A DNA stretch of 64,000 nt from positions 1,774 through 65,773 of the forward strand of contig JBFLZW010000019.1 in assembly GCA_040755755.1 (NCBI GenBank), given 5' to 3'. The DNA is from a bacterium (GTDB lineage Bacteria; SZUA-182; DTGQ01). Both the position numbers and the translations under genes were made by a program. The notes beneath the pieces were generated by a model. It was not told where the DNA came from. It made no database searches and saw nothing but the letters and a program-made list of their open reading frames with translations. Below are positions 1-32,337 of the stretch, one piece after another; within the stretch, counting starts at the first letter, position 1, and each line of letters begins with the position of its first letter.

Positions 1-216
1 ACTTGTCCGATCTCAGAATCGATCTTCTGGCTTAAGGTATCGATTCTTTGGTTTACTTGTCCGATCTCAGAATCGATCTTCTGGCTTAAGGTATCGATTC
101 TTTGGTTTACTTGTCCGGTCTCAGAATCGATCTTCTGGCTTAAGGTATCGATTCTTTGGTTTACTTGTCCGATCTCAGAATCAATCTTCTGGCTTAAGGT
201 ATCGATTCTTTGGTTT
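1..216 (-). repeat. 54-bp tandem repeat inside the coiled-coil gene
   Basis: Four head-to-tail copies of a 54-bp unit begin at 1, 55, 109 and 163, differing by only one or two bases. A diverged fifth unit starts at 217. The unit is 18 codons, so copy-number change keeps the reading frame. The near identity at DNA level indicates recent slippage or unequal crossing-over, and the array may continue beyond the window edge. Confidence 0.95.
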
Positions 217-488
217 ACTTGTCCAATTTCCTGCCTTACCTGCCCTATTTGAGTATCAATCTTCTGATTTAATTGACCGCCCAAGTCATCAATCTTCTGG
301 CTTATAGTATCTATCCGCTGGTTGAAATATCGAGAGCTTTCCTCTTGCTTCTGCCTGAAGTCCTCAGCATTTTTCTCAATGGCAGTGTAAATATCATCCA
401 GTGTAACCCGCTTAATTGACTTACCCGCTGCCATTATCGGCCCTGCTATCTTCCCCATGCCCTCTTTTATGTTCTCTTTGACTTTCAT
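1..488 (-). CDS. Coiled-coil repeat protein, C-terminus cut by window edge
   Basis: An open frame runs on the minus strand from an ATG at 488 to the window edge (about 162 codons visible). A ribosome-binding stretch AAAGGTGG lies about 10 nt before it, and the ATG overlaps the stop of the upstream HTH remnant in an ATGA junction. After a head of about 55 residues rich in Lys and Glu, the protein becomes a heptad-like repeat: the 18-residue unit NQRIDTLSQKIDSEIGQV recurs exactly, preceded by looser versions. No signal peptide or membrane segment is visible in the head. The repeat predicts a long parallel coiled coil; the function is unknown. Small proteins of this style often follow excisionase-like HTH genes, but I cannot name a family. 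Confidence 0.7.
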   Translation of the reverse strand, partial: MKVKENIKEGMGKIAGPIMAAGKSIKRVTLDDIYTAIEKNAEDFRQKQEESSRYFNQRIDTISQKIDDLGGQLNQKIDTQIGQVRQEIGQVNQRIDTLSQKIDSEIGQVNQRIDTLSQKIDSETGQVNQRIDTLSQKIDSEIGQVNQRIDTLSQKIDSEIGQ

Positions 489-2205: not shown

Positions 2206-2826
2206 ATGGATAACAAGCCAGGAAGTTTAACCAAAATATCAACGGTTAATGAGCCGGAAAGTCCGGCAAGAAAAGACAGGGGAACAGAAACGGCGGGAGT
2301 ACGATTCAGCATTTCATCCAAAAGCATAGCCAAAAAGCTGCTGCGCCTGAACATGTGGTTTATCATGGTTGGTGTTCTGGTTTTGGCCATAGCCTCCATT
2401 GTTACTTTTACCATGGGCATCGTGCGCTTTCTCCTGTTCCTGGCAAGAGACATCCATTGGCATCATTTTTCGGTGCCGCACAATTTTAATGCCGTGATCT
2501 GTGAGATCCTGGAAATCAATTTAATCGCCGTAATCCTTTTTATTTCAGCTATCGGGCTCTATCTTCTCTTTTGGAAAGATATTCGGGTTCCCGGATGGCT
2601 GACCATCAACGATGTCAATCAATTGAAGGAGAAACTGGTTGGCATTCTTATTACTGTTATGGGAGTAACCTTTCTCGAACATATCCTGGAATGGGCTGAC
2701 CCGCAGGGAACGCTTATGTTTGGAGTGGCTATTGCCCTGATCATCACCACGCTGGTATTTTACATCAAAATCATGGTCTCGGAGGGGGGAGAGGGAGGGA
2801 ATGAAAAGAATGCACACCACGGATAG
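2206..2826 (+). CDS. YqhA-type (UPF0114) inner-membrane protein
   Basis: The first 45 residues are polar and probably cytoplasmic, and at least four hydrophobic segments follow (about 48-75, 100-125, 140-163 and 170-190). The stretch PGWLTINDVNQLKEKLVGI followed by FLEHILEW is the pattern of the YqhA/UPF0114 family, whose role is not established. A strong AAGGAGGT site 11 nt upstream supports the start. The 3' end overlaps the next gene by 26 bp, so this membrane protein is probably made with the large propeller-ATPase and may anchor it. Family assignment is fairly sure; the functional link is inference. Confidence 0.75.
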   Translation: MDNKPGSLTKISTVNEPESPARKDRGTETAGVRFSISSKSIAKKLLRLNMWFIMVGVLVLAIASIVTFTMGIVRFLLFLARDIHWHHFSVPHNFNAVICEILEINLIAVILFISAIGLYLLFWKDIRVPGWLTINDVNQLKEKLVGILITVMGVTFLEHILEWADPQGTLMFGVAIALIITTLVFYIKIMVSEGGEGGNEKNAHHG

Positions 2827-5800
2827 GGAATATGATGCCTGCCCAGGTAAAGAACCCCGACAGGCGTTGAAAGACCTTTTACGCCTGGCTGAGACCAAGC
2901 TCGATCTCGTCTGGCGTTTTGAAGCAGGAGAGGAGATTACCAGCCTCTGCGTTGCTCATTATACGAGACACGATAAGCCGCAAAATCAGGTTATCGTCGG
3001 CTCGAAAGACAGTTGTGTTTATTCGCTGTCCATTGATAAGGAGCTGTTATGGAAATTCTGTGCCCAGGATGAAATCCTGGCTCTGTGCACCTCGGACCTG
3101 ACCCGTGACGGTTCAGAGGAAATCGTCGTTGGATCAAAGGACCATCACATCTATATCCTCGATCCGGAAGGCGGCCTGATAAAGGATTACCTGTGTGACG
3201 GCCCGGTGAAGGCGGTGACCGTAGCCAGAGGCGAGGGAGAGGACTCTATCGTCATCGCCGGATCTTCGAACGGCTATATCTACTTTTTCGGTTATGGGGA
3301 TGGGACTCAGTGGAAATATTATTGTGGTGACAACTGCCGGGTCACCGGTCTGTGCGTAGCCTCTCTCGGAGAGAATAAGGAGAGTGTGGTAGCCATTACC
3401 AACCGGGGGGATGTCATTATCCTGGATTATCAGGAGAAAAAGGTTCTGCGCCGGGTCAAAAAGCCCGGTTCGCTCTATGCTGTCATAGCCCAGGATATCG
3501 ATAATGACGGAACCAATGAAATCATCGTCAGTTCCGATTCCTGCTGTGTCTATGCCCTGAATAACTATGGCCGGGAGAAATGGCGGTTCAGGACCAAGGA
3601 TTCCGTCTACTCGATTCACTGCTGCGACATTGATATTGACAACCGTTTCGAAGTTGTTATCGGCACCCGCGATGATTACGTGTACGTGCTCGATGCCGAA
3701 GGAAGATACGAGTGGAAATACAAGACCGACCATAATGTCTGGAGTATCTACAGTGCACCCTTCTCACAGCAGATGAAATTCTGCGATCTCTTTGCCGGTT
3801 TGAGCAACCGGATGGTCTATTACTACCGGCTGCGCGACTGGCGGCATTATGCCAACAAGATCGATGAGTTCTATACCAAACTGCTGAGTACCGGCAAAGA
3901 GGAATGGGAGGTTCTGGAAAGCTTCAGCAGGGATGAGGATGAGTACCTTCGGCAGTTTGCCGCTCAAAAGCTGGTGACCCTGGCCAATGGCCATTCCCTG
4001 AACCAGAATATCCTGCTCTGTTTGCGGAACATGTTGAAAGATCACTCTCCCAAGGTCAGGGCCGCTGCGGTGAAGAGCATGGTCAGCCTGTCGGAATATA
4101 ACCCTGACCTGGTGGTCAGGATACTCTCGACCGAGACCTTCGAGCAGGATGAACAAGTGCGTCTCAAGATTATTCAGGGAATGTCTTCCATAGCCCTGAA
4201 CGCATCCACCAGGAGAGGGGATATCTTTAATCATCTCCAGAGATTGAGCCAGCAGTGGGAGCAGATCGACCGCAAGGCGATCATTAATCTTTTCGACGTT
4301 GCCCAGACGGAATTTATCACCGGCAATCTGAACGAAGCCCTGATCGATTTCCAGTTCCTGGCGGACCGGGGGATCGACCTTGTTTCGAAATATAAGACCG
4401 ACGGCTATGTCTGCTCGCTGACCTGCGGTGACCTGAACCAGGGCAGCAGCTCGATTATTGCCGTGGCTTCCCGGAACAACCATCTCTACATTTTCGATCA
4501 GCGGGGAAAGCTGAAATGGGACCGGTCAACGGAAACCTATGTCCAGGGAATCTTCATCGAGGATGTGGACAATGACGATCATCCTGAAGTCGTGGTCGGC
4601 GAGGCTAACGGGACCTTTCAGTTTTTCTCGGAAAATGGAGAGGAGAAGGGCAGATTTTGCTTTCCAAACCAGGTCAATGATTTTTACCCGGTCAAGGACA
4701 GGCGCGGAAAGGTCGATGGTCTGGTCATCGGAACCCAGGATGGCATGGTTTACTACCTTGATTCTTCCTGGCAGGAGAAGTGGCGCTTTCAGACCAGAAC
4801 CTGCGTTTTAAGCGTTTTTGCGGATGATATCGATCGCGACGGCTATCCGGAGATAGCTGTCAGCACCCTGCATGGGCATCTCTTTTTACTGGACCGCAAA
4901 GGAGGAGTGCGCTGGGAAAGAAATTTCCAAAGTGATATCAGGGCCATTAATTCATTGCGGGAAGAGGATGTCGATCTGATCATCGGCACCCGGAGCTGGA
5001 AGATATATGCCCTCGATGCCAGGGGAAATATCAAGTGGCTGCAATCCAGTGATCAGGTGATCAACAGGATCTGGGTATCGCAGATTCATGATGCCAAACG
5101 GATCATGGTCGCAACCCAGGGTGCCTCGCTCCTGGTTCTGGATGCCAGGGGAAACCGGGTTGGAAAAGTGGAGACCTTTGCCAACATTACCGCCCTTGCC
5201 TGTGCCGATATCAACCGTGACGGACAGAAGGAAATCATTCTGGGTTCCCAGGATGATCATGTCTATATTTATCAGTTCATCGATCGCCAGACAGTGGATG
5301 CCTACATTAAACGATGCAGGGAATTATCCGAGATCCTGGGGAAAAAATTATCCTTCGCCAGAAACGATATTCTGCGGCTCATCAAGGTCAACTTTGAAGG
5401 ACGGGATAGGAAGGACAAGGTTGTCCTGGTAGGCTACCTCGGTTCGGGGAAAACGAATATCCTCTGGCAGATCAGTTCCGGAGCTATCGGCGAGCGGTAT
5501 CTGCCGGTCTATATCAACCTCCACTATGCCAGGCTCGACAGTCTGGGAGATTTTATCTGGGATTTTGCGGAAAAAATCACCAAAGAGCTTTTCCGGAAAG
5601 GAATTTATCCTTCCTGCCCATCCAAACCGGATTTTTCCGACAATTGCCTGGAGGTGTTCCGGACCTTTTTCCGGGGCCTTTCAGCTCAACTGGAGGAGAA
5701 AATACTCCTGATCCTGTTCGACGATTTCGATTGTCTGCAAACCGAGGTTACCAGCGAGAATATCAGCCACGATGTCTTCCATCTCTTCGAGGAGATGATC

Positions 5801-8119
5801 GATACCGGCAAGTGCTATTTTGTCCTGACCGCTTCCTCGTATGACTTCGACCTCGAACGAAAGAGTGGAAATACCTTTCTGAGCAATGCCCTGATCAAGG
5901 ATGTTAACTTCGTTGACCGGTTCAGCGTCCAGCAGGAACTGTTCCGGCAACTGGGGGAGGATCTCGAAGACCGGGAGGAGGTGGTCAACAGGATCCTTGA
6001 AATTACCGGAAGCCATGCCCACTACCTTCAGATTGCCTTCAATATCATTTCAGCCTATCTTGACAGGACCAGGAAGAACCGTCTGACCAACAAGGACTGG
6101 GCCGATCTGTATTTCAGGATCATGGAGGCCATCGAGGCAGAGCTTCTCAATCCCTGGGAGACGTTCCTGGCCTGGGAAAAGGTGGTCCTCTCCTCTCTGG
6201 CCAGACTCAATCCCTACGGGGCAACCATCACGGATATCAAGAAGAACCTCGGCTTGTTCACTCCTCTGGTTTCCAGTCACCATCTGGCCAACGTCCTGAA
6301 GAACCTGACCAGAAAGTCCATCCTGAACGAAATATTCACTGACCGGGATATTCACTACAATTTTACGATCTCGGTTTTCCGTGACTGGATCAAGAAGAAG
6401 ACCAATCCCTTTCAGGTCATCAGCGAGAATGCCGAAGCCATCTTGCAGGATGTCCCCTTAAGGCTGTTTTATCATCAGCACCGCACCTGCCAGCACAGAA
6501 AACAGATGGATCTTTTCTTACAGACTATTGGCCTTGATTTCAAACAGTGGAAGGTTTTGGCAACCTTATCGCAGAAATGGGCCAAGCTGATTGACCGCAA
6601 GGGTGAAATCAATAAGACGGCCCTGGCCGATTTTGTCCGCTATTTCGCCAAATTATTGGGTTTTTCAGTCAACGAGATTATCGAGTATCCCAAACTTTCC
6701 TGTTTCCGCTTCGACACACCGGCCCTTCGTCTCAAAAAGCTGGCTGGTATGATCCTGGCTGTTCCTCTGACCTGCAAGCCCGACGAAACTGACTTTCAGA
6801 CCCTGATCGGCGTGATTGCCAACCTCGATGCAGCCCCGAATACCTTTATGGTCCTCGAACTGGAAGAAACCGGCATTTTCGAGAAACTGGTCGCCAACTC
6901 CAAGCTCGACCTTGTTCTTCTGGATCAGGAGCGGCTCAAGAGCATCTTTCTGGCCACCAGCAACTATCTCCAGGCACTCATCGATGATGTCATCCTGCAC
7001 TATGTTGATTTTGTCGATCTCTCGCCCTATGAGACCATGGGGCCGGTGGACAGCATGTTTTTCGGCCGTCTCGAAGAAATCAAGACCATGAGGCAATTGT
7101 CGCACAAAAGCTTTGCCATTATCGGGTCCCGGCAGCTCGGCAAGACCTCTCTGATGCTGAAAGTCCGTAATCTCATCTGCCACGATACCAAAATCAAGAC
7201 CCTTTTTCTGGATTGCAGCACCTATTATGATCCTCTTACCCTGTGCCAGGCCATTATCGATGGCATCTGCCATGAACGAAAGGCGGTTATCGACAGCCTG
7301 GCTGATTTCAAGAGAATCATTCATGAAATTTGCCAGAAAGAGGTCAAGCTGGCCCTTTTCCTGGATGAAATCGACACCCTCTTGTCTATCGACAAGGAGC
7401 AGAATGAATTGCTGTTCAAGACCTTTCGGGCACTGTCACAGGAAAATGCCATCAGCCTGATCGTGGCCGGGTATGAAGAACTGTCCATCAGGACCAAGGA
7501 CATCAAATCACCCCTGTTCAATTATCTTGAGCTTATCAGGCTTTCTTCACTGGACAAGCGGGCAGCCGCTCAACTGATTACCGAGCCGATCAAGGAGCTG
7601 GGGATCCGCCTCCAGGACGAAAAGGCCCTGGTCGAAGAGATCTGCGAGATCAGCTCCTGTTTTCCCAACCTTATCCAGTTCATCTGCAAACGGCTGATCC
7701 AACTGATCGCTTCTCAAAAGCGCAGGGTGATCTACCCGACGGATCTGGCCCAGGTAAAGAGGGATCCGGACTTTCAGGATTACCTGCTCAGCAGATTTTT
7801 TACCAATCTTACTCCTCTGGGTAAAATCATTACCCTGCTTCTGGCAGGAAGACAGGAGATGCCCGCTTCTTTGATTGATGAAAAGCTGCGGCAAAATAAT
7901 ATCTATTTATCGATGCTGGAATTATCCGAAGAAATTGACCGGCTGATTATTGCCTCGGTTTTTTCCCGGACAAAGCAGGGTCTGCGGTTCAGCCTGCCCT
8001 ATTTCTCGCAGGTTCTTGCCCAGAACATGGAAAAGGAACTTTTATTGAAACAACTTTTCAGGGAGGTACATAATGGAAAACACGATTCCCTTCAAGTACA
8101 CCGGTCCGTTGGATCCTGA
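2801..8119 (+). CDS. Giant beta-propeller / HEAT / beta-propeller / dual P-loop ATPase
   Basis: A 1772-residue soluble protein. Residues of about 30-350 form a propeller of PQQ/FG-GAP-like repeats with D-I-D-x-D-x-x-x-E-I/V blades (DIDNDGTNEIIV is one). Residues of about 365-470 are HEAT-like helices, then a helical linker. A second propeller spans about 527-840, again with DVDNDDHPEVVVG-type motifs. The first NTPase has Walker A GYLGSGKTN (about 877) and Walker B ILFDDFD (about 971). The second has SRQLGKTSL (about 1442) and LFLDEIDTL (about 1519), followed by winged-helix-like sequence. The second module resembles AAA-like STAND ATPases and the neighbouring gene. No signal peptide is seen. 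It sits between a membrane protein and another ATPase, overlapping both. I infer a sensing or scaffold NTPase; the architecture is not one I recognise as characterised. Confidence 0.85.
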   Translation: MKRMHTTDREYDACPGKEPRQALKDLLRLAETKLDLVWRFEAGEEITSLCVAHYTRHDKPQNQVIVGSKDSCVYSLSIDKELLWKFCAQDEILALCTSDLTRDGSEEIVVGSKDHHIYILDPEGGLIKDYLCDGPVKAVTVARGEGEDSIVIAGSSNGYIYFFGYGDGTQWKYYCGDNCRVTGLCVASLGENKESVVAITNRGDVIILDYQEKKVLRRVKKPGSLYAVIAQDIDNDGTNEIIVSSDSCCVYALNNYGREKWRFRTKDSVYSIHCCDIDIDNRFEVVIGTRDDYVYVLDAEGRYEWKYKTDHNVWSIYSAPFSQQMKFCDLFAGLSNRMVYYYRLRDWRHYANKIDEFYTKLLSTGKEEWEVLESFSRDEDEYLRQFAAQKLVTLANGHSLNQNILLCLRNMLKDHSPKVRAAAVKSMVSLSEYNPDLVVRILSTETFEQDEQVRLKIIQGMSSIALNASTRRGDIFNHLQRLSQQWEQIDRKAIINLFDVAQTEFITGNLNEALIDFQFLADRGIDLVSKYKTDGYVCSLTCGDLNQGSSSIIAVASRNNHLYIFDQRGKLKWDRSTETYVQGIFIEDVDNDDHPEVVVGEANGTFQFFSENGEEKGRFCFPNQVNDFYPVKDRRGKVDGLVIGTQDGMVYYLDSSWQEKWRFQTRTCVLSVFADDIDRDGYPEIAVSTLHGHLFLLDRKGGVRWERNFQSDIRAINSLREEDVDLIIGTRSWKIYALDARGNIKWLQSSDQVINRIWVSQIHDAKRIMVATQGASLLVLDARGNRVGKVETFANITALACADINRDGQKEIILGSQDDHVYIYQFIDRQTVDAYIKRCRELSEILGKKLSFARNDILRLIKVNFEGRDRKDKVVLVGYLGSGKTNILWQISSGAIGERYLPVYINLHYARLDSLGDFIWDFAEKITKELFRKGIYPSCPSKPDFSDNCLEVFRTFFRGLSAQLEEKILLILFDDFDCLQTEVTSENISHDVFHLFEEMIDTGKCYFVLTASSYDFDLERKSGNTFLSNALIKDVNFVDRFSVQQELFRQLGEDLEDREEVVNRILEITGSHAHYLQIAFNIISAYLDRTRKNRLTNKDWADLYFRIMEAIEAELLNPWETFLAWEKVVLSSLARLNPYGATITDIKKNLGLFTPLVSSHHLANVLKNLTRKSILNEIFTDRDIHYNFTISVFRDWIKKKTNPFQVISENAEAILQDVPLRLFYHQHRTCQHRKQMDLFLQTIGLDFKQWKVLATLSQKWAKLIDRKGEINKTALADFVRYFAKLLGFSVNEIIEYPKLSCFRFDTPALRLKKLAGMILAVPLTCKPDETDFQTLIGVIANLDAAPNTFMVLELEETGIFEKLVANSKLDLVLLDQERLKSIFLATSNYLQALIDDVILHYVDFVDLSPYETMGPVDSMFFGRLEEIKTMRQLSHKSFAIIGSRQLGKTSLMLKVRNLICHDTKIKTLFLDCSTYYDPLTLCQAIIDGICHERKAVIDSLADFKRIIHEICQKEVKLALFLDEIDTLLSIDKEQNELLFKTFRALSQENAISLIVAGYEELSIRTKDIKSPLFNYLELIRLSSLDKRAAAQLITEPIKELGIRLQDEKALVEEICEISSCFPNLIQFICKRLIQLIASQKRRVIYPTDLAQVKRDPDFQDYLLSRFFTNLTPLGKIITLLLAGRQEMPASLIDEKLRQNNIYLSMLELSEEIDRLIIASVFSRTKQGLRFSLPYFSQVLAQNMEKELLLKQLFREVHNGKHDSLQVHRSVGS

Positions 8120-9233
8120 GTACGACGGCCTGATCAGCATCACCCGGCAGGATGAGCTGACCGAGATGATCAAAGGGGTGAGCAATCATACCTATTATGC
8201 TCTGGTCGGACCGCGGCAGACAGGAAAAACGACCCTTCTTTTCCAGCTTATGCAGGAAATTGCCACCAGTTTACCCGGTTTTCAGGGGCTTTACCTGACC
8301 CTGGAGGATCTGGTCAAGGTCAAATACCAGGACTTTTACAAAAACCTTGCCCGCAAGATCATCAGCTCACTTTCAAACCGATATCAGATCCAGCCAGCCT
8401 CGCTCAGGGAGCAATACAAACAGGTCGAAACCAACCTGGACCTGAAGGATTTTCTCCTTGATTTAGCCAGGGCCAGGCTGGGGCCGCAGAGTTCGGATGA
8501 ATGTATCGAATTCGAAGCCAGAGAGCATAAGGGAGTAAAGTTCGTCCTCCTGATCGATGAGATTGACGCCATTCCCCATGATATCATGATCGAATTTGTC
8601 AAAACCGTCCGGTCCATTTTTATCGAGCGGCTCTCGGTAGCCGGTTTCAAGGCTTACACTATGGTCCTGTGCGGATCGGCTGATCTTGCCTCTTTGACCT
8701 ATGGCAAAACCTCGCCGTTTAATATCAGCAAGGTCATTTATCTGCGAGATTTCACCTTTGAGGAGATCCGGGAGTGGACTAGCCGGATATTCCACCATTA
8801 CCAGATCTCGCAGCCTGAATCCTTTGCCCGGCGGTTGTTCGACGAGACCATGGGACATCCCTACCTCACCCAGATGCTCTGCTTCAGGATTTTCAAGCGT
8901 CTTTGGCAGGAGGACCGTCATGAGGTCACCCAGGACGATTTTCAGGAGGTTGACCAGATTATTACCGGAGGGGACATTAATCTCCTTACTACCCTGGAAA
9001 GGATCAAGGGAGATGAAATACTGAAGGAGATGACCTTGAAGATTTTACGGGGTGAACCCATCCGGTATTCACGGACCCATGACATCATCTATCATCTTGA
9101 GCTGGCGGGAGCCATCCGGCGAAACAACGAATATTGCCAGATAAGAAACCTCATCTATGAAAAATTTTTAAAACAGCATTTTAATCTCATCGAGCCCGGC
9201 CCATCGTTAGCCAGGGCTGCGATCGGGATGTAA
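8073..9233 (+). CDS. AAA-like (PF14516-type) STAND ATPase
   Basis: 386 residues. Walker A is GPRQTGKTTL at about 45-54 and Walker B is FVLLIDEIDAI at about 157-167. A C-terminal winged-helix-like stretch (about 300-375) ends with YCQIRNLIYEKFL, typical of the AAA-like family in which a small WH domain closes the ATPase. The start has a good AGGGAGGT site 7 nt upstream and lies 47 bp inside the preceding gene, in another frame, so the two are probably translated together. Its ATPase is similar to the second ATPase of the giant protein, and the two may form a mixed oligomer (inference). Confidence 0.85.
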   Translation: MENTIPFKYTGPLDPEYDGLISITRQDELTEMIKGVSNHTYYALVGPRQTGKTTLLFQLMQEIATSLPGFQGLYLTLEDLVKVKYQDFYKNLARKIISSLSNRYQIQPASLREQYKQVETNLDLKDFLLDLARARLGPQSSDECIEFEAREHKGVKFVLLIDEIDAIPHDIMIEFVKTVRSIFIERLSVAGFKAYTMVLCGSADLASLTYGKTSPFNISKVIYLRDFTFEEIREWTSRIFHHYQISQPESFARRLFDETMGHPYLTQMLCFRIFKRLWQEDRHEVTQDDFQEVDQIITGGDINLLTTLERIKGDEILKEMTLKILRGEPIRYSRTHDIIYHLELAGAIRRNNEYCQIRNLIYEKFLKQHFNLIEPGPSLARAAIGM

Positions 9234-9264
9234 GCTCTCCAGGGAAGAGGAGGAAAAAGGACGC

Positions 9265-10569
9265 ATGAACATAGATCAGAGCATGACAGGCTCCTCATCA
9301 CAGGTCACAACAGATTATATTCCTCTCCGGGAACCGATTGATCTCAGAGCAGGGAGGATAGCTTCGAATGGGGAATCCTCTCTGCGCATTCTCCTGGTTG
9401 ACGATGAGGAAATCGTCCACCAGACCCTGGGACCATACCTTCGGGACTGCGGGCACCATGTGGAAAATGCCTGGGAAGGCAGCACTGCTTTGGAGTTGAT
9501 CGAGGCCAAAGAGTATGACCTTGCTCTTGTCGATATCAGAATGCCGGGCATGGACGGTCTCTCGGTGCTGTCGGCCATGGGGGAGGTCCGCCCTGAACTG
9601 TCTGCGGTCATTATTACCGGGCACGGAAACATGGAAACCGTCATTCAGGCCCTGAGACTGGGGGCGGCGGATTTTCTCACTAAACCGGTCAAATTGCTTG
9701 AGCTGGATGCAGTGCTGGAAAAGTCGATGCGGATCCGCTACCTGCGTCAGGGCCAGCGTCGGTTGCGGGAAACCATCAGGGGCATGCAGGCCTCGGAGGA
9801 GATCCGCCTCGGAAACCGCTATCTGGTTGGAGTCAGCCAGGCCATTGACGAGGTGCGCAGGCAGATTCATCTGGCAGTCAAGGCCCGGTGCGAGATCATT
9901 CTGATCAGCGGAGAGACCGGCACCGGCAAGGAGATTGCCGCCCGGGAGATCCACTTCCGGAGCGCAGGCGACGACCGGCCCTTTATCGCCGTAAACTGTC
10001 CGACCCTGCCTGAATCCCTCGTTGAGAGCGAGCTGTTTGGCCATGTCAAGGGCGCATTCTCCGGTGCTGCCGCGGACAAGGCAGGCTATTTCGAGCTGGC
10101 CGAGGGTGGCACCCTCTTTCTGGATGAAATCTCAGACCTCAGCCCGCAAGTCCAGGCCAGGCTCCTTCGGGTGCTGGAGGCCCGAAAGCTGCGGCGGATC
10201 GGAGGATCGAAGGAAACCGGCATTAATGTCCGGGTGATCGCCTCGACCAGTATGCCCCTGGAGGAGCTGATAGTTTCACCTCGGTTTCGGAGGGACTTTT
10301 TCTACCGCCTGAATGTATTTACCATCAAAATCCTGCCCCTCCGGGAACGCTGCCCGGATATCATCCCCCTGGCCGAGCATTTCCTGTCAACCTACCGGGC
10401 GAGCCGAAGCCTTCGCATCAGCGGCTTTTCGCAGGAGGCAAAGGATATGCTGGTTAGCTACAGCTTTCCCGGTAATGCCAGGGAGCTTCGCAATATCGTC
10501 GAGCGGGCAGCGATACTGTGCCGGTCAGGGCTGATCGAGCCAAAACACCTTGGGCTGCCGGAGAGCTAG
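9265..10569 (+). CDS. NtrC-family sigma-54 activator without DNA-binding domain
   Basis: 434 residues. A receiver domain (about 40-155) has acidic pocket DD46-47, phospho-acceptor Asp90 in LVDIRMPG and Lys140 in LTKP. The AAA+ sigma-54 interaction domain (about 184-425) has Walker A GETGTGK (216-222), a GAFTGA loop in the variant form GAFSGA (263-268), Walker B FLDE and arginine fingers in FRRDFFYRL. The protein stops right after the AAA+ lid (PKHLGLPES), so the usual C-terminal Fis-type helix-turn-helix is absent. It may act from solution or be recruited by a partner. It follows the ATPase gene by 31 bp and precedes a Spy/ZraP-like gene, recalling the ZraR/ZraP arrangement; no cognate kinase is adjacent. 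Confidence 0.9.
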   Translation: MNIDQSMTGSSSQVTTDYIPLREPIDLRAGRIASNGESSLRILLVDDEEIVHQTLGPYLRDCGHHVENAWEGSTALELIEAKEYDLALVDIRMPGMDGLSVLSAMGEVRPELSAVIITGHGNMETVIQALRLGAADFLTKPVKLLELDAVLEKSMRIRYLRQGQRRLRETIRGMQASEEIRLGNRYLVGVSQAIDEVRRQIHLAVKARCEIILISGETGTGKEIAAREIHFRSAGDDRPFIAVNCPTLPESLVESELFGHVKGAFSGAAADKAGYFELAEGGTLFLDEISDLSPQVQARLLRVLEARKLRRIGGSKETGINVRVIASTSMPLEELIVSPRFRRDFFYRLNVFTIKILPLRERCPDIIPLAEHFLSTYRASRSLRISGFSQEAKDMLVSYSFPGNARELRNIVERAAILCRSGLIEPKHLGLPES

Positions 10570-10701
10570 AGTTTCGGGTAAAATTTACACTCACAGGTTA
10601 TACAGTCACGGATCGATCTGTACCGTAAATTCATTTGAAAACCGTATGTCAAGGGTGAATACCATCAATACACCTGCAAACCGTGTGAGGAGTGAAAAAG
10701 T

Positions 10702-11217
10702 ATGACTAAAAAAATCGGATTATTCAACTCACTGAGGAGCAGCAGGAGCAGCTTTTGCGCCTGGCTGATTCCAGAGGCCATCCCATTATCAACACCCCCG
10801 GCGCTGGAAATCATTTGTATGGGGAATTGCCATCCTCTTTTCCGGTATGATCGTCGGTGCAGGCATATCCTTAACTATATGGGGCATGCGATGCTGTTTC
10901 AGGCCCTTCACTCCGGGAATAAAATGGCCGAACATATTACCAGACGGATCGCATGGAAAGTTGATCTCACACCGCAGCAGCGCAAGCAGGTGGAAATCAT
11001 CGTTCGTACAGGGGTGGCCGGATTCAGAGAGATTATCGACTCTGTCTACCTGCAGGTCGAAGAGCAGTTCGAATTACTTCACCAGGAAGTGAATTCTTTG
11101 CTCACCGAGGAGCAGAAGGTGAAGTGGGAGAAGCATTATAAAAAGATGAAAGACAAGCTCAATCGTCATAGGCCAGGCCCTTGGAATTCGGAAAACATTG
11201 ATGCGCACACGAGGTAA
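10702..11217 (+). pseudogene. Spy/ZraP-like periplasmic protein broken by three homopolymer frameshifts
   Basis: The coherent product is spread over three frames. Adding one base in each of A7 (10708-10714), C5 (10795-10799) and G4 (10881-10884) gives one 172-residue protein: a cytoplasmic head with LTEEQQEQLLRLADSRG, a membrane anchor (WGIAILFSGMIVGAGISL), and a C-terminal helical domain with KVDLTPQQRKQ and SLLTEEQK, the paired LTxxQ motifs of Spy/CpxP/ZraP. Those proteins are periplasmic chaperones or metal-stress sensors. As written, only the C-terminal domain from about residue 62 is correctly framed from the ATG at 10702. Three same-direction single-base losses in homopolymers suggest sequencing error as much as real decay. 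Confidence 0.7.
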
Positions 11218-11279: not shown

Positions 11280-11293
11280 AATCAGCTTAAACC

Positions 11294-11567
11294 GAATGGC
11301 ACTTACATAAGCCAAGCTTATAATATAGAGAGGACACAAAGCACACAGGGAAAAAAGATCTCCCGCAGAGACGCAGAGACGCAGAGAACAACCAATCCGG
11401 CAAGGTCCTGATGAAAGTCGGGATATATCGATGTGTCAACGGCCTGGAAGCAAGCAAAAAGTAAAAAGGCACAAGGAGGAACTTATTTTACTTTTACTTT
11501 TCAATGATATCCTCTGCGTCTCAGCGTCTCTGCGGGAGAATTACTAATTCTTATGTAAGTGCCATTC
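11294..11567. mobile_element. 274-bp MITE with 18-bp terminal inverted repeats and 10-bp target duplication
   Basis: The ends are perfect inverted copies: GAATGGCACTTACATAAG (11294-11311) and CTTATGTAAGTGCCATTC (11550-11567). The element is flanked by the direct repeat AGCTTAAACC (11284-11293 and 11568-11577), a clean 10-bp target-site duplication. Inside, CTCCCGCAGAGACGCAGAG-type sequence near 11360 is inverted near 11515 with one mismatch. No transposase frame is present, so it is non-autonomous. A 10-bp duplication fits IS4-type transposases, but the helper is not in the window. Confidence 0.85.
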
Positions 11568-11577
11568 AGCTTAAACC

Positions 11578-23807: not shown

Positions 23808-24749
23808 TCATTCTTCAAGGTCGATGATTTTCAAATCAAAGGGTTTTTTCTGACTATCTGAATCGACCACCACCTTTTGCATTTTGGTCATGGTCTGTTC
23901 CATGGTTTCCAGGAAAAGGCGGGAGGTTGTAACCTGCTCGCTGCCGTTGTATTGAGCGCACATCTCGATGAATCTCTGGGCATCTCCCTGGGCGTTATTG
24001 ATTTTCTCGTTCCGGTAGCTTTCAGCCTCACGGATGATTCGCTCGGCTTCTCCTCTGCTCTGGGGGATTTTCTCGTGCCGGTATCCTTCGGCCTCGTTGA
24101 TATACCGGTCCCGGTCCTGTCTGGCTGCGGCCACATCCTTGAAGGCATCGGCCACCTCCAGGGGCGGGTAGACATTCTGCAGGTTGATCGAGGCCAGTTG
24201 CACCCACCGTTTCCCCTGGCACAGCTCATCCAGCCTGCTTTGGGTATCAGCCAGGACGTCCCGCTGAATGGCTATCTTGCCGTTCCCTTTCAGCACATCG
24301 TCCACATTCATCCGGGCTACGGTTTTCGTCAGGCTGGACTTGGCCATATCCCTGATCAGGCTAGCCGGGTCATTGAATGCAAACAGGTAGTCAACCGGCT
24401 CAAGAATGGAATATTGCAGGACCATTTCCATCTTGATGATATTCCGGTCGCCGGTCAGGAATTCCCCCTGGGTCGGATTCGAGGCCCGGCCTATGGCCTG
24501 GTCGGCGAATTCAAACCCGACGCTGATCCGCTTTTTTTCCTGCGGCATGATCTTATCCACCCGCTCAATCGGGTACGGCCATCGGTAGTGCAATCCCGGA
24601 GCCACTCTGGCATTGACTACCCGGCCAAAGCGCCTCTTGATCCCCAATTCGTTCGTCGATACCAGGAACAGGCCGGACAGCAGGTAGAGAAGCCCGGCTA
24701 TGCCCAGAATCCATTTCGTCCATCTGGTTACAGTTTTTGTCGTGCTCAT
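23808..24749 (-). CDS. HflK-like SPFH/band-7 membrane protein
   Basis: 313 residues. One N-terminal anchor (about 12-32) is followed by an SPFH domain opening with ELGIKRRFGRVVNARVAPGLHYRWPYPIE. The C-terminal coiled coil carries repeated AEGYRHEKIPQSRGEAERI-type motifs and ends with IDLEE. HflK and HflC form a periplasmic cage around FtsH in E. coli. This protein has a conserved WPYPIE segment like the SPFH part of the fusion protein upstream, so the two are paralogues. It is encoded 17 bp after the HflC-like gene. Confidence 0.8.
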   Translation of the reverse strand: MSTTKTVTRWTKWILGIAGLLYLLSGLFLVSTNELGIKRRFGRVVNARVAPGLHYRWPYPIERVDKIMPQEKKRISVGFEFADQAIGRASNPTQGEFLTGDRNIIKMEMVLQYSILEPVDYLFAFNDPASLIRDMAKSSLTKTVARMNVDDVLKGNGKIAIQRDVLADTQSRLDELCQGKRWVQLASINLQNVYPPLEVADAFKDVAAARQDRDRYINEAEGYRHEKIPQSRGEAERIIREAESYRNEKINNAQGDAQRFIEMCAQYNGSEQVTTSRLFLETMEQTMTKMQKVVVDSDSQKKPFDLKIIDLEE

Positions 24750-24766
24750 CTTGAGTACCCGCCTCT

Positions 24767-25744
24767 CTACTTTTTGGCCAGGTTATCTGCTTTGGCAGCA
24801 CCGGCGGTTTGAGTGGCTTTGCTCCTGTTCTTACCAGAGCTTACGGTCCTGACAGCATCCTTCACCTGTCCTTCAGTCAGCAATTTGAACAGATCTGAAC
24901 CTGACGACAGAACCACCGTGGTTTTCTCATTCATGAATTTCTGATAGGCCTGGAGTGTTCGCAGGAACTTGTAAAAGTGGACGTTCTGCCCATAGGCATC
25001 ACCATAGATCCGGATCGCTTCGGCATCGCCTTCTCCTTTGGTGATTTCAGCGGTCCGGTAGGCCTCGGAGAGGATCGTTCTGGTCTCCTTGTCCGTGGCT
25101 GCCCGGATCTTCAGGGCCTCCTCTTCTCCCTCGGCCCGGTACTGTTTGGCGATTCTCTGCCGCTCGGCCCGCATCCGGTCAAAAACAGACTGCTTGTTCT
25201 GCTGGGGAAGAATCAATTGTTTGAGCTTTACGCTGGCAATCTTGATACTGTAATCCTTCTCGGCGCGCTTTCTGCAATTATCGAGGACCTGCTGAAAAAT
25301 CTCGGTGATCTTCATCTCTCCCGGTTTGGTGGAAACCAGAGAGGACAGGTCATACCGGCCGAGAGCAGCCGACACTTCGGAATACACCAGGTCATCGAGA
25401 TGGGTTTGCGCTTTGGCAACATCATTGACGGTAACGTAGAAGTCAAGAGGATCGATGAGCTTCCAGCAGACGAAATTGTCCACCACCACGTTTTTCTTGT
25501 CCCGCGTCAGGTACTCCTGGGGTATCGGGTTGTAAATCAACATCCTTTTGTCCAGGGTGATGGTGGTATGAATGGGTGACTTGAAGTGCAATCCGGCCTT
25601 TGAAACCACGCGGGTCGGCTTTCCGAACAGGGTGACAATCTTGTACTGGGTTTCATCAACCACAAACATGCTTAAAAAGATTAAAACTAAGGATACGAGA
25701 ATCAGGAATGAAACGGTGATCTTCTTTCTTGTTTTCTTTTCCAT
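24767..25744 (-). CDS. HflC-like SPFH/band-7 membrane protein
   Basis: About 325 residues. The GGAGGG site suits the ATG at 25744 (the ATG at 25750 is too close to it). One N-terminal anchor (about 9-27) is followed by an SPFH domain: TQYKIVTLFGKPTRVVSKAG, then HTTITLDKRMLIYNPIPQEYL and KKNVVVDNFVCWKI-type strands, as in HflC. Then come a long helix with MRAERQRIAKQYRAEGEEEA and the GEGDAEAIRIYGDAYG turn seen in HflC. It is part of the operon with a metal ATPase-SPFH fusion and an HflK-like protein. Confidence 0.85.
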   Translation of the reverse strand: MEKKTRKKITVSFLILVSLVLIFLSMFVVDETQYKIVTLFGKPTRVVSKAGLHFKSPIHTTITLDKRMLIYNPIPQEYLTRDKKNVVVDNFVCWKLIDPLDFYVTVNDVAKAQTHLDDLVYSEVSAALGRYDLSSLVSTKPGEMKITEIFQQVLDNCRKRAEKDYSIKIASVKLKQLILPQQNKQSVFDRMRAERQRIAKQYRAEGEEEALKIRAATDKETRTILSEAYRTAEITKGEGDAEAIRIYGDAYGQNVHFYKFLRTLQAYQKFMNEKTTVVLSSGSDLFKLLTEGQVKDAVRTVSSGKNRSKATQTAGAAKADNLAKK

Positions 25745-25765
25745 TGACATCCCTCCATGAGGAAA

Positions 25766-28700
25766 TTACGGCTTCAGACTCTGCTGTTTGGATCGAGGGA
25801 AAAATTCCCTGGTAATATTATTGATGAGCGTCTCAATTTTTTTGGAACCAAAAACTGTCAATTCCTCGCGGCCACTGCGCTGCTCGTCGAGGATAAATTT
25901 TTTCATCCCCGGCAGTACGCTCTCCACGGTCTCAAGGTAAAGCCGGACCGAGGTGACATCTTTAAAGGTATCATAGTTTTTGCACATGCTGACAAACCGC
26001 TGGCCCTCTCCCTCAGCCCGGTTGGTTATTTCGTCACGGTAAGATTCGGCCATTCTGATATTCTGCTCCCCCTTGCCGCGGGCCAGGGGCAGTTGCTCGT
26101 TGTGATAGCCTTCAGCCAGATTGATGAGCATGCTCTTTTCCTCATGGGCATTGACCACGGCCCGAAAGGCGTCGGCCACCTCAATCGGCGGATGCACGCT
26201 CTGCAAATACGCTCCCTCGACCAGAAGGCCTGCGTCAAGAGAGTCAAGCTCCCGCTGGAGAAGCGTGGAAACCTGGGCTTCGATTTCACTGCGGTCCACG
26301 GTCAGGATATTATCGGCCCCTTTTCGTCCGACGATTTCCCGGATGGCTGACTGGGCGCAAAACCGCACCAGGTCCGTGGTGTCCTGGAACCCCCGGATCT
26401 TGAACAGATAATTCGAAGGATCCCTGATCACGTACTTGACCACCATGTCCATTTCAAGGAAATTCTCGTCTCCGGTGAATACCAGGGACTCATCACTCTT
26501 CTTCTGATACTCTCCGGTACGGTCCTGAATATCCCATTCATAGGCGGTGACCACCTGCCCGGTTTTCTGATCCACCCGGCTGACTACGCTTTTGTTTCGG
26601 CGAAATCCGACCTCGACCCGCTCGACGGTACGAACAACTTTGGTGACTTTATCGATCGGCCAGGGAAAGAACAGATGAAGGCCGGGTTGCAGATTATCGG
26701 TGATCTTGCGGCCAAACCGCTGGACTACTCCCCGCTGGTAGGGAGAGATCATGGTAAGCCCGGAAGCCAGATAGAGCACGATCACCAGGGCAAGAGCAGC
26801 GTTGCATATCGGCTTTTTGTGGGCTTCCCAGACATGGTGAAGATAGTCATGAACAAGGTGCCGCCACCATCCCGCCAGCCCGCTCGCCCAGCCCGACAGA
26901 ATGGCTTTCATTTTTCCGGATAAAAGCCGCAGCGAATTTCCCACTACCAGAAGGGAACTGATCTGGTGGACAACGGCTGCCACCACTGGAGTGACCCAGG
27001 CAACGGTCGAGGCAGCCACCACTGCCAGCGCGTTGAAGATAACGGCAAAAAAGAGGATGTTCTGCCTGATGGTCCTCACGGTTTTTCTGCCGATGGTAAC
27101 TGCATTTTCAAGGCGGCTCAGGTCATCGGCCATAAAAATCATGTCTGCGGATTCAATGGCAATATCGGAGCCGATATTGCCCATGGCTATGCCGACATTG
27201 GCCGTACTTAAGGAGGGGGCATCGTTGATTCCGTCTCCGACCATAGCCACGGTGTATCCTTCCTCCTGCCATTGCCGGATCTTGGCTACCTTGCCGTCAG
27301 GCAAAAGATGGGCGGCATATTCATCGATGCCGGCCTGCCGGGCAATCTGCCTGGCTACCAGCTCGTTGTCGCCGGTCAGGAGGGTAAGCCTGATACCCAG
27401 TTTTTTCAGTTTCCGGAGCGTCTCCACAGTTTCGGGCCGGATCTCATCCTGCATGGCGATGGCGCCGGCCACCTTCTGCCCGCAGGACACCAGGATCATG
27501 GTCTGTCCCTTATGTTCGACTTCGTCCAGGACTTTCAGGGCAGCCGGGTCGAATTCCAGGCCATTTTCCTCGAGGAGTTTTCTGTTCCCTACCAGCACGG
27601 TATTCCCCTGGTGAACGGCTTCAACCCCTAACCCGGGCTTTACCTGGAATTTGTCACAGTGGCCGATATCGAGTGACTTTTTTCTGGCCTCCTCCACGAT
27701 AATGCTGGCCAGAAGGTGCTCGGAATACTGATCCGCCGTGGCCGCCAAAGAGAGGACCTGCTGTTCTGAATACCCTTGAAAGGAAATGATACTGACAATT
27801 CTGGGTCTTCCCTGGGTCAGGGTTCCGGTTTTGTCGAGAGCGATCAGATTGACTCTGCCCATGGCCTCAAGATAGGCCCCGCCCTTGACGAGGATACCCT
27901 CCCTGGCCATCCGCCCGATACCGGCAAAAATGGCCGTGGGAGTAGCCAGGACCAGAGCGCAGGGGCAGGCGATGATTAAAATGGAAACCGACCGCACCAG
28001 ATCTCGGGTAATAAGGTAGGCAATGGCAGCCACCAGGATAATAACCGGGACAAAAAACTTGGCATACCGGTCGGCCACCTTCTGAATGGGAGCCTTCTGA
28101 GCCTGGGCCTCTTCCACCAGATGAATGATCCTTGACAGGACAGTATCCTCACCGACCTTGTCCGCCCTGATCTCCAGAGAGCCCAGTTGATTGATGGTTC
28201 CGGAATACACCTTGCTTCCGGTGCTCTTTTCCACCGGAATGGATTCGCCGGTAATCGTGCTTTGATCGACGGAAGACCGTCCGCAGAGAACCTCACCGTC
28301 AACCGGGATCCTCTCACCGGGCCTGACGATGACATGGTCATTGGCAGTCAGCTTTTCAACCTCGATCTCCTGCTCTTTCCCCTCCCTGATCACCCGGGCC
28401 TTTTTCGGCGAAAGATCGATCAGCTTTTTGATAGCCCCCCTGGTCCGGTCAACGGCAAAGGATTCAAGGGCTTCTCCCACCAGCATGATAAAAATAACTT
28501 CAGCGGCAGCCAGATACTGCCTGATGGAGAGGGCGGCAATCGCAGCCAGAGCAATGGCCAGATCAACCGAGATCTTCCGTCTGAAAAGACTCTCCAGCGC
28601 GCCAAAGAAGATTTTATACCCGCCGATCAGGGTCAGAATGATCGATGTGTCGATTCCCAGAACGGTTCGAAAAATTCCCAGCCAGTTGAGCAAAAGCAAC

Positions 28701-28825
28701 AAGCCAATAATGGCAGTGAAAATAACATAATTCAGAGAGACACCTTCTTCTTCCTCTTCTATCTCGTCTTCCAATTTCGGATCATCGGCCAAGACCTGAT
28801 GATTCTTCTCCTTAGCTGTGCTCAT
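25766..28825 (-). CDS. P1B-type metal ATPase fused to an HflK-like SPFH domain
   Basis: 1019 residues. Residues of about 1-650 are a heavy-metal-translocating P-type ATPase: actuator TGES (about 192), membrane CPC in ACPCALVLATPTA (about 287), DKTGTLT (about 330), GDGINDAPS (about 530). The nucleotide-domain His motif reads SEHLL instead of the usual SEHP. There is no N-terminal HMA metal-binding domain; an acidic stretch (EDEIEEEEEG) is there instead. A linker leads to another membrane anchor (about 676-695), then an SPFH domain (QRGVVQRFGRKITDNLQPGLHLF) and coiled coil to the C-terminus. A CPC motif suits Cu, Zn or Cd. The single frame is continuous across the junction, so this is a true fusion as sequenced. 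It leads an operon with HflC-like and HflK-like genes. Confidence 0.9.
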   Translation of the reverse strand: MSTAKEKNHQVLADDPKLEDEIEEEEEGVSLNYVIFTAIIGLLLLLNWLGIFRTVLGIDTSIILTLIGGYKIFFGALESLFRRKISVDLAIALAAIAALSIRQYLAAAEVIFIMLVGEALESFAVDRTRGAIKKLIDLSPKKARVIREGKEQEIEVEKLTANDHVIVRPGERIPVDGEVLCGRSSVDQSTITGESIPVEKSTGSKVYSGTINQLGSLEIRADKVGEDTVLSRIIHLVEEAQAQKAPIQKVADRYAKFFVPVIILVAAIAYLITRDLVRSVSILIIACPCALVLATPTAIFAGIGRMAREGILVKGGAYLEAMGRVNLIALDKTGTLTQGRPRIVSIISFQGYSEQQVLSLAATADQYSEHLLASIIVEEARKKSLDIGHCDKFQVKPGLGVEAVHQGNTVLVGNRKLLEENGLEFDPAALKVLDEVEHKGQTMILVSCGQKVAGAIAMQDEIRPETVETLRKLKKLGIRLTLLTGDNELVARQIARQAGIDEYAAHLLPDGKVAKIRQWQEEGYTVAMVGDGINDAPSLSTANVGIAMGNIGSDIAIESADMIFMADDLSRLENAVTIGRKTVRTIRQNILFFAVIFNALAVVAASTVAWVTPVVAAVVHQISSLLVVGNSLRLLSGKMKAILSGWASGLAGWWRHLVHDYLHHVWEAHKKPICNAALALVIVLYLASGLTMISPYQRGVVQRFGRKITDNLQPGLHLFFPWPIDKVTKVVRTVERVEVGFRRNKSVVSRVDQKTGQVVTAYEWDIQDRTGEYQKKSDESLVFTGDENFLEMDMVVKYVIRDPSNYLFKIRGFQDTTDLVRFCAQSAIREIVGRKGADNILTVDRSEIEAQVSTLLQRELDSLDAGLLVEGAYLQSVHPPIEVADAFRAVVNAHEEKSMLINLAEGYHNEQLPLARGKGEQNIRMAESYRDEITNRAEGEGQRFVSMCKNYDTFKDVTSVRLYLETVESVLPGMKKFILDEQRSGREELTVFGSKKIETLINNITREFFPRSKQQSLKP

Positions 28826-30657: not shown

Positions 30658-32337
30658 TCAATCCTGACTGATTACGATCACCCGGGAGTTGTTGAAGTCC
30701 TTTTTCTCCAGTTTGTCCATCGTCTCCCAGGCGCGAGTCAGGTCAGTAAAAGGGCCAACGATGACTGAGTATCTTTCCCTTTGATCGGAAAGGTTCTCCC
30801 GCTCGATATAGATGCGTCTGCCGATCGAGGACAGTTTATTCAGGCAGCCCTGGGCCTGGTCAACGGTCGGGAAGGAATCTACCTGCACACCGTAGATACG
30901 GGAGCCTTTTTCCGATTTCCCTCCATCGGCGGTGAGATCAGGAAAGTAAACCTTCTGGCCAGGTTCGATGAGGTTCAAATTTGAGATATGGGGATTGGCC
31001 TTGTGAATGGATGCCAGGATACTATCCGTCACTTTCTCACACCCGTAAAGTTTGAGGGCCATCCGGGAGACAAAATCGCCCTTTCCGGCTACCACTACCT
31101 GATATCCTGCCCTTTGTATTTCTCCAGGGGCACTATCCTCCGGCAGGTTCCGGTGATCAGCGGGGAAATTTTTGTTGTCTGCTTTTCTTATCGGCTCATC
31201 GACGGGTGGAAGATCGTTTTGGCCGACCGGATTGGAATCGGACCGGGCGTCAGATGGAACTGCCTGAGACCTGGCTCTGGCAGTATGCAGAGACCCTGGC
31301 TGCGGCACAGAGCCGGTTTGCGGGGATTGCACAGGTGACAGGCCGCTCGGTCCTGCCTTTCGGCTGGAAGTGGCCTGCTCCTGACCGGTATCGGTTGCAC
31401 TGCGGTGGCGGATAATCCCGAAAAAACCCAGGATAACGAGAACTGCCAGGGCTGCCGCAGGCGCAGCCAATTTTGACAACTTTTTAAGGTTGAACTTTCT
31501 CTGTTCCGGAAATACGGCGTCCGGGAAGAGGGATTTGACAACCAGCTCGACGATCTGCTTATCCACTACCTGCTGCTTCCTGATGAGCATGAGCAGCAGG
31601 CAATGATGGCAGAGATTGACGATTTTTCGGGGATATCCCTGGCTGCACTCGTAAATCTTCTGATAGGCCTCCTGGGTAAAAAGAGACTGACGGGAGAAAT
31701 ATCCCGCCTTCCGAAGGCGGAAATCAATCATTTCCCTGGTATCAGCCAGGCTCAGGGGTTTGAGAAAATAGAGCATATTGACCCGGTCCATAAAGTTTTT
31801 CTTCCCCTGAATCTTGTCCAGAAATTCCATCTGCCCAAAAAGCACCAGCTGCAGCAGCTTGTATTCATTGGTTTCAAAATTCAGAAAATCCCTCAGCAGC
31901 TCCAGAAAGGGATAGTCCATCTTCTGGGTTTCGTCGATGATCAGGACAATGACCCGCTTGCGTTCCAGTCCCTCTTTCAGGAGGTTGGTCCGTATGGCTT
32001 CCTTGAAAGCCAGGCTGGTTTTCTCCTCAGGGACCGGGATATTGAAAATTTTTACCAGCGAGAGGAGAAATTCATATTCGGAATTGAATGAAGGATCGAG
32101 TATCAGATGGAACCTGAACTCTTCATATCCCTGAAACAACTGAATTAAAGCGCGGCTCAGGGTTGTCTTGCCGGTCCCGACATCCCCCAGGATGATATTC
32201 AATCCCCTGCGCAGCCGGATGGATAATTCAAGTTGTTGCAGACATTCCTGGTAATCCCTGGAATAGTAGAAAAAGCTCGGATCAGGTGAAATCGAAAACG
32301 GTTCCTTTTTTAGGTTAAGGAGGGTTGTGTAATCCAT
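30658..32337 (-). CDS. ExeA-type ATPase with LysM-like and SPOR domains
   Basis: 559 residues. The ExeA/AAA ATPase occupies 1-270, with the family N-terminus (NLKKEPFSISPDPSFFYYS), Walker A GDVGTGKTT (51-59), and Walker B LIIDET (about 132-137). A membrane helix lies at about 290-309. The periplasmic part has a Pro/Ser-rich linker, a LysM-like domain (about 415-470, ending IEPGQKVYFPDL) and a SPOR domain (about 480-559, YGVQVDSFPTVDQAQ then VIVGPFTDLTRA). ExeA acts with ExeB to insert secretin through peptidoglycan; LysM and SPOR both bind peptidoglycan. The start codon has no ribosome-binding site and lies about 7 nt from a -10 box, so the mRNA may be leaderless. Confidence 0.85.
   Translation of the reverse strand: MDYTTLLNLKKEPFSISPDPSFFYYSRDYQECLQQLELSIRLRRGLNIILGDVGTGKTTLSRALIQLFQGYEEFRFHLILDPSFNSEYEFLLSLVKIFNIPVPEEKTSLAFKEAIRTNLLKEGLERKRVIVLIIDETQKMDYPFLELLRDFLNFETNEYKLLQLVLFGQMEFLDKIQGKKNFMDRVNMLYFLKPLSLADTREMIDFRLRKAGYFSRQSLFTQEAYQKIYECSQGYPRKIVNLCHHCLLLMLIRKQQVVDKQIVELVVKSLFPDAVFPEQRKFNLKKLSKLAAPAAALAVLVILGFFGIIRHRSATDTGQEQATSSRKAGPSGLSPVQSPQTGSVPQPGSLHTARARSQAVPSDARSDSNPVGQNDLPPVDEPIRKADNKNFPADHRNLPEDSAPGEIQRAGYQVVVAGKGDFVSRMALKLYGCEKVTDSILASIHKANPHISNLNLIEPGQKVYFPDLTADGGKSEKGSRIYGVQVDSFPTVDQAQGCLNKLSSIGRRIYIERENLSDQRERYSVIVGPFTDLTRAWETMDKLEKKDFNNSRVIVISQD

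Follow-up and report, generated by a model that had tools for sequence, protein, structure and literature searches.

A patchy three-gene core with a double-propeller giant NTPase as a candidate STAND-type switch

Within a window of 64,000 nucleotides of bacterial DNA, we delineated three overlapping genes, encoding a UPF0114-family membrane protein, a giant protein of 1772 residues and an AAA_35-family ATPase, which sequence comparison identifies as a real but patchy core, lineage-restricted within the searched genomes and, with two genomes carrying it, of thin conservation. By the same comparison, the sigma-54 regulator and the Spy-like reading frame that follow lie outside this core. We tentatively read it as a three-gene STAND-type NTPase switch, in which a propeller/HEAT sensor and a partner ATPase would act through membrane output by the UPF0114 protein, and we give this reading a probability of about 40%.

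Layout of the locus and architecture of the giant protein

An earlier note on this DNA had described five overlapping or closely spaced plus-strand genes, and all five open reading frames are present, namely ORF1 (2206–2826; 206 aa), ORF2 encoding the giant protein (2801–8119), ORF3 (8073–9233; 386 aa), ORF4 (9265–10569; 434 aa) and ORF5 (10702–11217; 171 aa), all on the plus strand. ORF1 and ORF2 overlap by 26 nt and ORF2 and ORF3 by 47 nt, and the ATG of ORF3 is directly preceded by a strong Shine–Dalgarno sequence, AGGGAGGT (8060–8067, plus strand, as read from the sequence), located inside the giant's gene; overlaps and ribosome-binding site together support a coupling of the core genes. 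The regulator gene ORF4 starts 31 nt downstream of the core. Housekeeping genes (MutL, MiaA, phosphofructokinase) make up the surroundings in the window, and no defence island was found around the operon.

ORF1 matches the UPF0114 family (PF03350) with 54.5 bits over a cut-off of 23.1, in line with its proposed identity as a YqhA-like membrane protein, and hydropathy predicts four transmembrane helices. The family match and the four helices are what it shares with other UPF0114/YqhA proteins, from which it differs by a longer N-terminus and by the operonic overlap with a giant NTPase gene.

For ORF2, the Pfam matches agree with the composition given in the earlier note, comprising two β-propellers, HEAT repeats and two P-loop NTPases, and full-length homologues support the gene. 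The order of its parts along the plus strand is propeller, HEAT repeats, propeller, NTPase 1, linker, α/β segment, NTPase 2 and a C-terminal part. The first propeller (about residues 36–345; 2906–3835) was recognized by Pfam propeller models as well as by PDB profiles of PQQ-like and designed propellers, and is followed by the HEAT repeats (about residues 370–480; 3908–4240; PF02985, 27.3 bits), a region that also gave a profile match to Integrator subunit 4. The second propeller (about residues 525–830; 4373–5290) has Pfam support as well and resembles the first, and the matches across both propellers are of the PQQ/FG-GAP type with a best E-value of 4.7e-46. An internal BLASTP comparison, run with composition adjustment and masking off, related the two propeller halves to each other (E 4e-21), and the N-terminal half therefore looks like a duplicated module arranged around the HEAT repeats.

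Both NTPases of the giant scored above their family cut-offs. NTPase 1 (5402–6028) matches ATPase_2 (PF01637) with 54 bits over residues 870–1076, against a cut-off of 33.2, and its Walker A (GYLGSGKT) and Walker B (LLILFDDFD) motifs are conserved in all three giants. NTPase 2 (7052–7780) matches AAA_22 (PF13401) with 41 bits over residues 1436–1561, against a cut-off of 27, and carries the motifs FFGRLEE, GSRQLGKTS (Walker A) and LFLDEID (Walker B). The GxP position is looser in the giant, reading TGSHAHYLQ and SSCFPNLIQ. The α/β segment preceding NTPase 2 (about residues 1275–1390; 6623–6970) has no Pfam match and was modelled at low confidence; by eye only, we suspect a pattern resembling Mrr nucleases. 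For the C-terminal half as a whole, the AlphaFold model reached a pLDDT of 50, below useful confidence. The protein is predicted to be cytosolic, because sequence prediction yielded neither a transmembrane helix nor an obvious signal peptide. Pfam recognized no effector domain in the giant, and PADLOC, NCBIfam and PHROGs assigned it to no family; phrog_6841, a PHROG without known function, touches its NTPases.

Distribution of the core, the partner ATPase and a possible mechanism

We compared nine genomes of the phylum, including the window's own 5.26-Mb assembly. Besides the latter, G001 alone contains full-length giants; this MAG, CSMAG_150, was submitted under the name 'Pseudomonadota bacterium' and belongs to the same family. 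On its contig C78, a flavodoxin-like gene is followed by the UPF0114 gene (73% identical and directly upstream of the giant), the giant (62%) and the AAA_35 ATPase (63%), with gene overlaps of 17 and 14 nt. Because the first three open reading frames are thus kept at 62–73% identity in another genome, the core goes beyond a chance arrangement. A second locus of the same genome, on contig C206, runs from a flavodoxin-like gene through a giant (39–40%) and an ATPase (35%) to the start of a second giant at the contig end, forming a tandem giant–ATPase–giant array with an overlap of 11 nt and without UPF0114; a further contig (C176) opens with a fragment of a giant's C-terminus. The search for co-occurrence suggested by the earlier note had a mixed outcome, with giant and ATPase adjacent in all three complete loci and the regulator lacking the Fis domain not recurring with them.

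The full core set was absent from the remaining genomes of the phylum, and a genome of the same genus that is 96% complete (G002) has no giant, no operon-type ATPase and no UPF0114 gene. A scan of 84,980 genomes with two short peptide patterns, which were built from three sequences and could miss distant relatives, returned only G001. The earlier note knew of no characterised system with this architecture, a statement that holds: we found a conserved unit and no described match.

The flavodoxin/FMN-reductase-like gene lying directly upstream in both loci of G001 raises the possibility that the core serves redox or membrane-stress homeostasis, with this protein, UPF0114 and the NTPases acting together and not against invaders. 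Experiments on Escherichia coli point the same way, where overexpression of yqhA confers resistance to H2O2 (PMC8228696) and a yqhA mutation has been linked to inhibitor tolerance (PMC10991953). However, this YqhA evidence comes from a distant homologue, no flavodoxin gene lies near the window locus, giant NTPase–propeller proteins are not known as redox machines, and the patchy distribution of the core also speaks against it; on balance, we consider a homeostatic role rather unlikely.

The partner ATPase ORF3 belongs to the AAA_35 family (PF14516, 62 bits over a cut-off of 27) with intact Walker A (GPRQTGKTT) and Walker B (LLIDEID) motifs followed by GHPYLTQ, and alignments showed the Walker motifs to be intact in all NTPases of the core. 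Its proposed resemblance to the second NTPase of the giant was confirmed by hhalign, which found the two families homologous with a probability of 98.1% (E 1.2e-13). Among known folds, the predicted ORF3 model (pLDDT 71) most resembles those of 2qen and 2fna, two STAND-like ATPases from archaea, with a TM-score of about 0.6 by target length, and RuvB and Orc/Cdc6 folds follow close behind.

The relatives of ORF3 comprise the two operon ATPases of G001 and a 37% identical sibling in the same genome that carries a fused CHAT (caspase-like) protease in which the His and Cys motifs are present. This CHAT–AAA_35 fusion groups as sister to the partner ATPase of C206 (support 100/99), and the clade uniting the fused sibling with the operon ATPases is supported at 98/100, so that this ATPase group is linked to an effector in one close instance at least. 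At the C-terminus of more distant AAA_35-like ATPases encoded by the same genomes, a PD-(D/E)XK-like region gave a weak Pfam match (E 0.024). On plasmids, AAA_35 relatives at 21–27% identity belong mostly to cyanobacteria, a small number coming from Chloroflexota, Bacteroidota and Abditibacteriota, and large proteins encoded by plasmids of Thiodictyon, Methylocystis and Salinibacter are related to NTPase 2 at about 25% identity; the plasmid search found no relatives of NTPase 1. NTPase 2 also recurs in a WD40–transmembrane protein of another genome (G003; E 8e-28). On the two plasmids inspected for YqhA relatives, the neighbours were unrelated genes.

None of the core proteins gave an over-threshold PADLOC or NCBIfam match to a known antiphage defence family. 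For ORF3, the PADLOC matches were partial, weak and confined to the P-loop region (best E 2.8e-6), and the NCBIfam Avs5 model scored 12.9 bits against a cut-off of 1000. Viral contigs gave no match to the system and no clear phage link. Separately, one phage record without annotation matched weakly.

These folds and relatives also bear on a large NTPase scaffold without effector output, devoted for example to cell–cell recognition or to the remodelling of protein complexes. Such a scaffold would fit the generic protein-binding nature of two propellers with HEAT repeats, and the fold search with ORF3 also returned AAA+ machines of the RuvB and Orc/Cdc6 kind. Set against it are the CHAT fusion of the close sibling ATPase and the accessory distribution of the core, and we judge the scaffold unlikely.

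In the STAND-type switch that we prefer, the propeller/HEAT half of the giant would serve as a sensor platform for a ligand or a protein, and ligand binding would trigger an NTP-driven assembly of the giant with its AAA_35 partner. The assembled complex would then act on an output, for which the four-pass UPF0114 protein in the membrane is the most likely candidate, resulting in a change of membrane permeability or a protective response. Several features are consistent with this switch, including the overlapping and conserved core, the recurrence of the giant–ATPase pair without UPF0114, the intact Walker motifs, the homology of NTPase 2 with ORF3, the STAND-like fold of the ORF3 model, and the patchy presence that extends to the lack of the core in G002 of the same genus, at 96% completeness. 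Counting against it are the lack of UPF0114 in one of the three loci and the lack of an assigned function for that family, the housekeeping surroundings, the weakness of the PADLOC matches, the missing phage link and the occurrence in two genomes only. Moreover, none of the three core genes was found to encode an effector domain whose toxic or enzymatic activity is known. The CHAT fusion of the close sibling ATPase makes a role in surveillance of invaders or stress more likely than housekeeping.

A more specific version, which we hold doubtful, would be a three-component immune-like or damage-sensing machine whose cytosolic double-propeller/HEAT sensor with its two STAND NTPases would bring in a third STAND ATPase and would gate the UPF0114 membrane protein. 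Such gating would, if true, represent the first molecular role for the UPF0114/YqhA family. Should the core operate as a STAND switch at all, it would extend the NLR-like theme of bacteria to three NTPase modules in two proteins, with a UPF0114 protein as candidate output that would offer a handle on the uncharacterised YqhA group.

The adjoining regulator and the downstream reading frame

ORF4 comprises a receiver, a sigma-54 AAA+ domain and a lid and then stops at 10569, in agreement with its description as an NtrC-family regulator lacking Fis, and no Fis-like reading follows downstream in any frame. A full-length paralog with 79% identity is encoded together with a histidine kinase on another contig of the window genome (C23), and a genome without the system (G004) likewise has a full-length regulator and kinase pair. 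The regulator beside the system in G001 is 73% identical to ORF4, retains Fis and is located upstream of the system, with a histidine kinase gene before it and about 600 nt between it and the flavodoxin-like gene; the 10-kb contig C206 carries no regulator with its locus. ORF4 is thus a C-terminally shortened paralog and a neighbour rather than part of the core, because a full-length regulator and kinase exist elsewhere and the copy of the relative keeps Fis.

The earlier note had envisaged a membrane-proximal sensor NTPase that signals through a DNA-binding-less sigma-54 activator to switch on an envelope-stress gene, a circuit that we consider very unlikely. It draws on the regulator of the ORF4 subfamily, one of about 34 sigma-54 activators encoded alongside RpoN in the window genome, which in both genomes with the system lies next to it and on its strand, a repetition unlikely to have arisen by chance. 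Activators of group V, such as FlgR and CtcC, lack a DNA-binding domain (PMC7175178), and ORF4 could act in an analogous way: it shares with them the receiver and AAA+ domains and the lack of a DNA-binding domain, but would represent a lineage-specific shortening, as its paralogs keep Fis. Nor is ORF4 obviously decaying as judged by its substitutions, with 23 specific to it compared with 18, 27 and 30 in the full-length copies. Its GAFTGA motif is changed to GAFSGA, a natural variant taken as functional in other bacteria (PMC4641369), whereas the replacement of the sensor-1 Asn by Ser speaks against the circuit, as do its truncation relative to the full-length paralog with a kinase elsewhere and the Fis domain retained beside the system in G001. 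The check for sigma-54 sites upstream of the operon also turned out negative, as a weighted −24/−12 scan of the window gave 16 sigma-54-like sites compared with 16 in the shuffled sequence and none close upstream of the operon. The link between ORF4 and the NTPases is one of neighbourhood alone, and any transcriptional control by this regulator would be at most an add-on to the core. The circuit as proposed is not sustained, given the shortened ORF4, the relative's copy with Fis and the C206 locus without a regulator.

Its supposed target fared no better. ORF5 had been described as a Spy/ZraP-like periplasmic protein, but its LTXXQ match of 14.4 bits (E 0.063) stays below the cut-off of 24.3, and the frame as drawn has neither a transmembrane helix nor an obvious signal peptide. 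Across about 10690–10890, no single frame holds the coding signal, an LTEEQQEQ repeat and a transmembrane helix: the LTEEQQEQ segment (about 10722–10817) and the transmembrane segment (about 10820–10888) are both in frames other than that of ORF5, and an LTPQQ/LTEEQ tail lies in the annotated frame. The frame of the transmembrane segment has no positive codon-usage score, and the middle frame step is defined by the helix alone. No relatives of ORF5 were found in the phylum genomes searched. The Spy-like frame is probably a frameshifted remnant, an assembly error being possible, and the envelope-stress target falls away with a gene that is unconserved and looks frameshifted. Regulators and stress genes beside such loci can hence be shortened or broken passengers, which calls for comparison before a circuit is read from them.

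Comparison with known systems

Antiviral STAND proteins of the Avs and bNACHT type combine an NTPase switch with a large repeat sensor in a manner similar to the core, which differs from them in having no N-terminal nuclease or protease effector in the chain and no family match over the cut-off. The ternary MoxR–vWA–β-propeller systems (PMC7159879) likewise place NTPase and propeller proteins in one operon; the core differs by NTPases of other families and has no MoxR or vWA gene beside it, its neighbours being a response regulator, the Spy-like frame and housekeeping genes.

The predicted nSTAND2 conflict operon of two genes encodes a partner with eroded NTP-binding motifs and GT4/HEPN effectors (PMC8195603). 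The likeness lies in adjacent genes for STAND-like NTPases that are expected to co-assemble, whereas in the core the Walker motifs are intact in both proteins and no GT4/HEPN match was obtained. None of the nSTAND Pfam models matched the giant or ORF3, with the nSTAND2 model possibly absent from the library.

The closest resemblance is to STAND NTPases (MNS/ATPase_2-type, AAA_35, 2qen, 2fna and the cyanobacterial AAA-like proteins), and NTPase 1, NTPase 2 and ORF3 all matched a curated family of the STAND group over its cut-off. Shared features are the Walker A motif, a DE/DD Walker B, a GR-x-x-E-like N-terminal motif and a GxP-like motif after the NTPase core, and the relatives likewise associate with repeat sensors and CHAT. 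The usual STAND layout, which is not obligatory, unites effector, NTPase and sensor in one chain; the giant has the sensor-like repeats, in its case N-terminal, and no effector domain. A further difference is the number of NTPases, with two per chain and a third in trans. A logic of effector, STAND NTPase and repeat sensor has been described for bacterial conflict systems (PMC7159879, PMC8195603, PMC10907252), and the modular way in which AAA_35 and NTPase 2 recur in other proteins is that of STAND-type conflict and signalling proteins. Taken as a whole, the architecture has no match in the libraries searched, and both its parts and its logic fall in known classes.

Repeats and a mobile-like element

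The window opens with 54-bp tandem repeats on the minus strand (window 1-324; G000:C19 1383-2261), the product of which is a coiled-coil-like repeat protein with an 18-residue unit, QKIDSEIGQVNQRIDTLS. A MITE-like element was observed at window 11287-11574, bounded by terminal inverted repeats of 25 nt (92%) and containing, inside these, a second inverted repeat of 28 nt rich in CGCAGAGACGCAGAG.

Other genes of the window and the lineage

On the minus strand, a P-type cation ATPase is joined to an SPFH/Band_7 domain in an uncommon fusion, followed by two more Band_7 genes (window 23808-28825). The same strand carries an AAA_22 ATPase with a SPOR domain (window 30658-32337) with a PilO-like gene nearby.

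Small secreted proteins rich in Trp/Pro (WPLPPYNTLWPLWSP) form a lineage-specific family, found at L077 (9784-10359), L096 (197-793 and 842-1465) and L084 (549-1079). Histidine kinases of the regulator-linked subfamily were located near two of these genes.

Further NTPase genes in this and other genomes

The window's genome carries three AAA_35-like ATPases with a PD-(D/E)XK-like region at their carboxy-terminus, and G003, of the same phylum, has another (L079, L080, L081, L083 in all). G003 also encodes a WD40-TM-NTPase protein of 1493 aa (L036, G003:C408) that is related to the giant's NTPase 2, with a MoxR-vWA gene set nearby on the opposite strand. On a Thiodictyon plasmid (L090 1014-8287), an NTPase 2-like module is part of a protein of 2038 aa; a 384-aa gene without a Pfam match comes immediately after, in a comparable two-gene layout. 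A further adjoining pair of genes for STAND-like NTPases, in the relative carrying the giant system (L107, G001:C191), recalls two-gene nSTAND operons.
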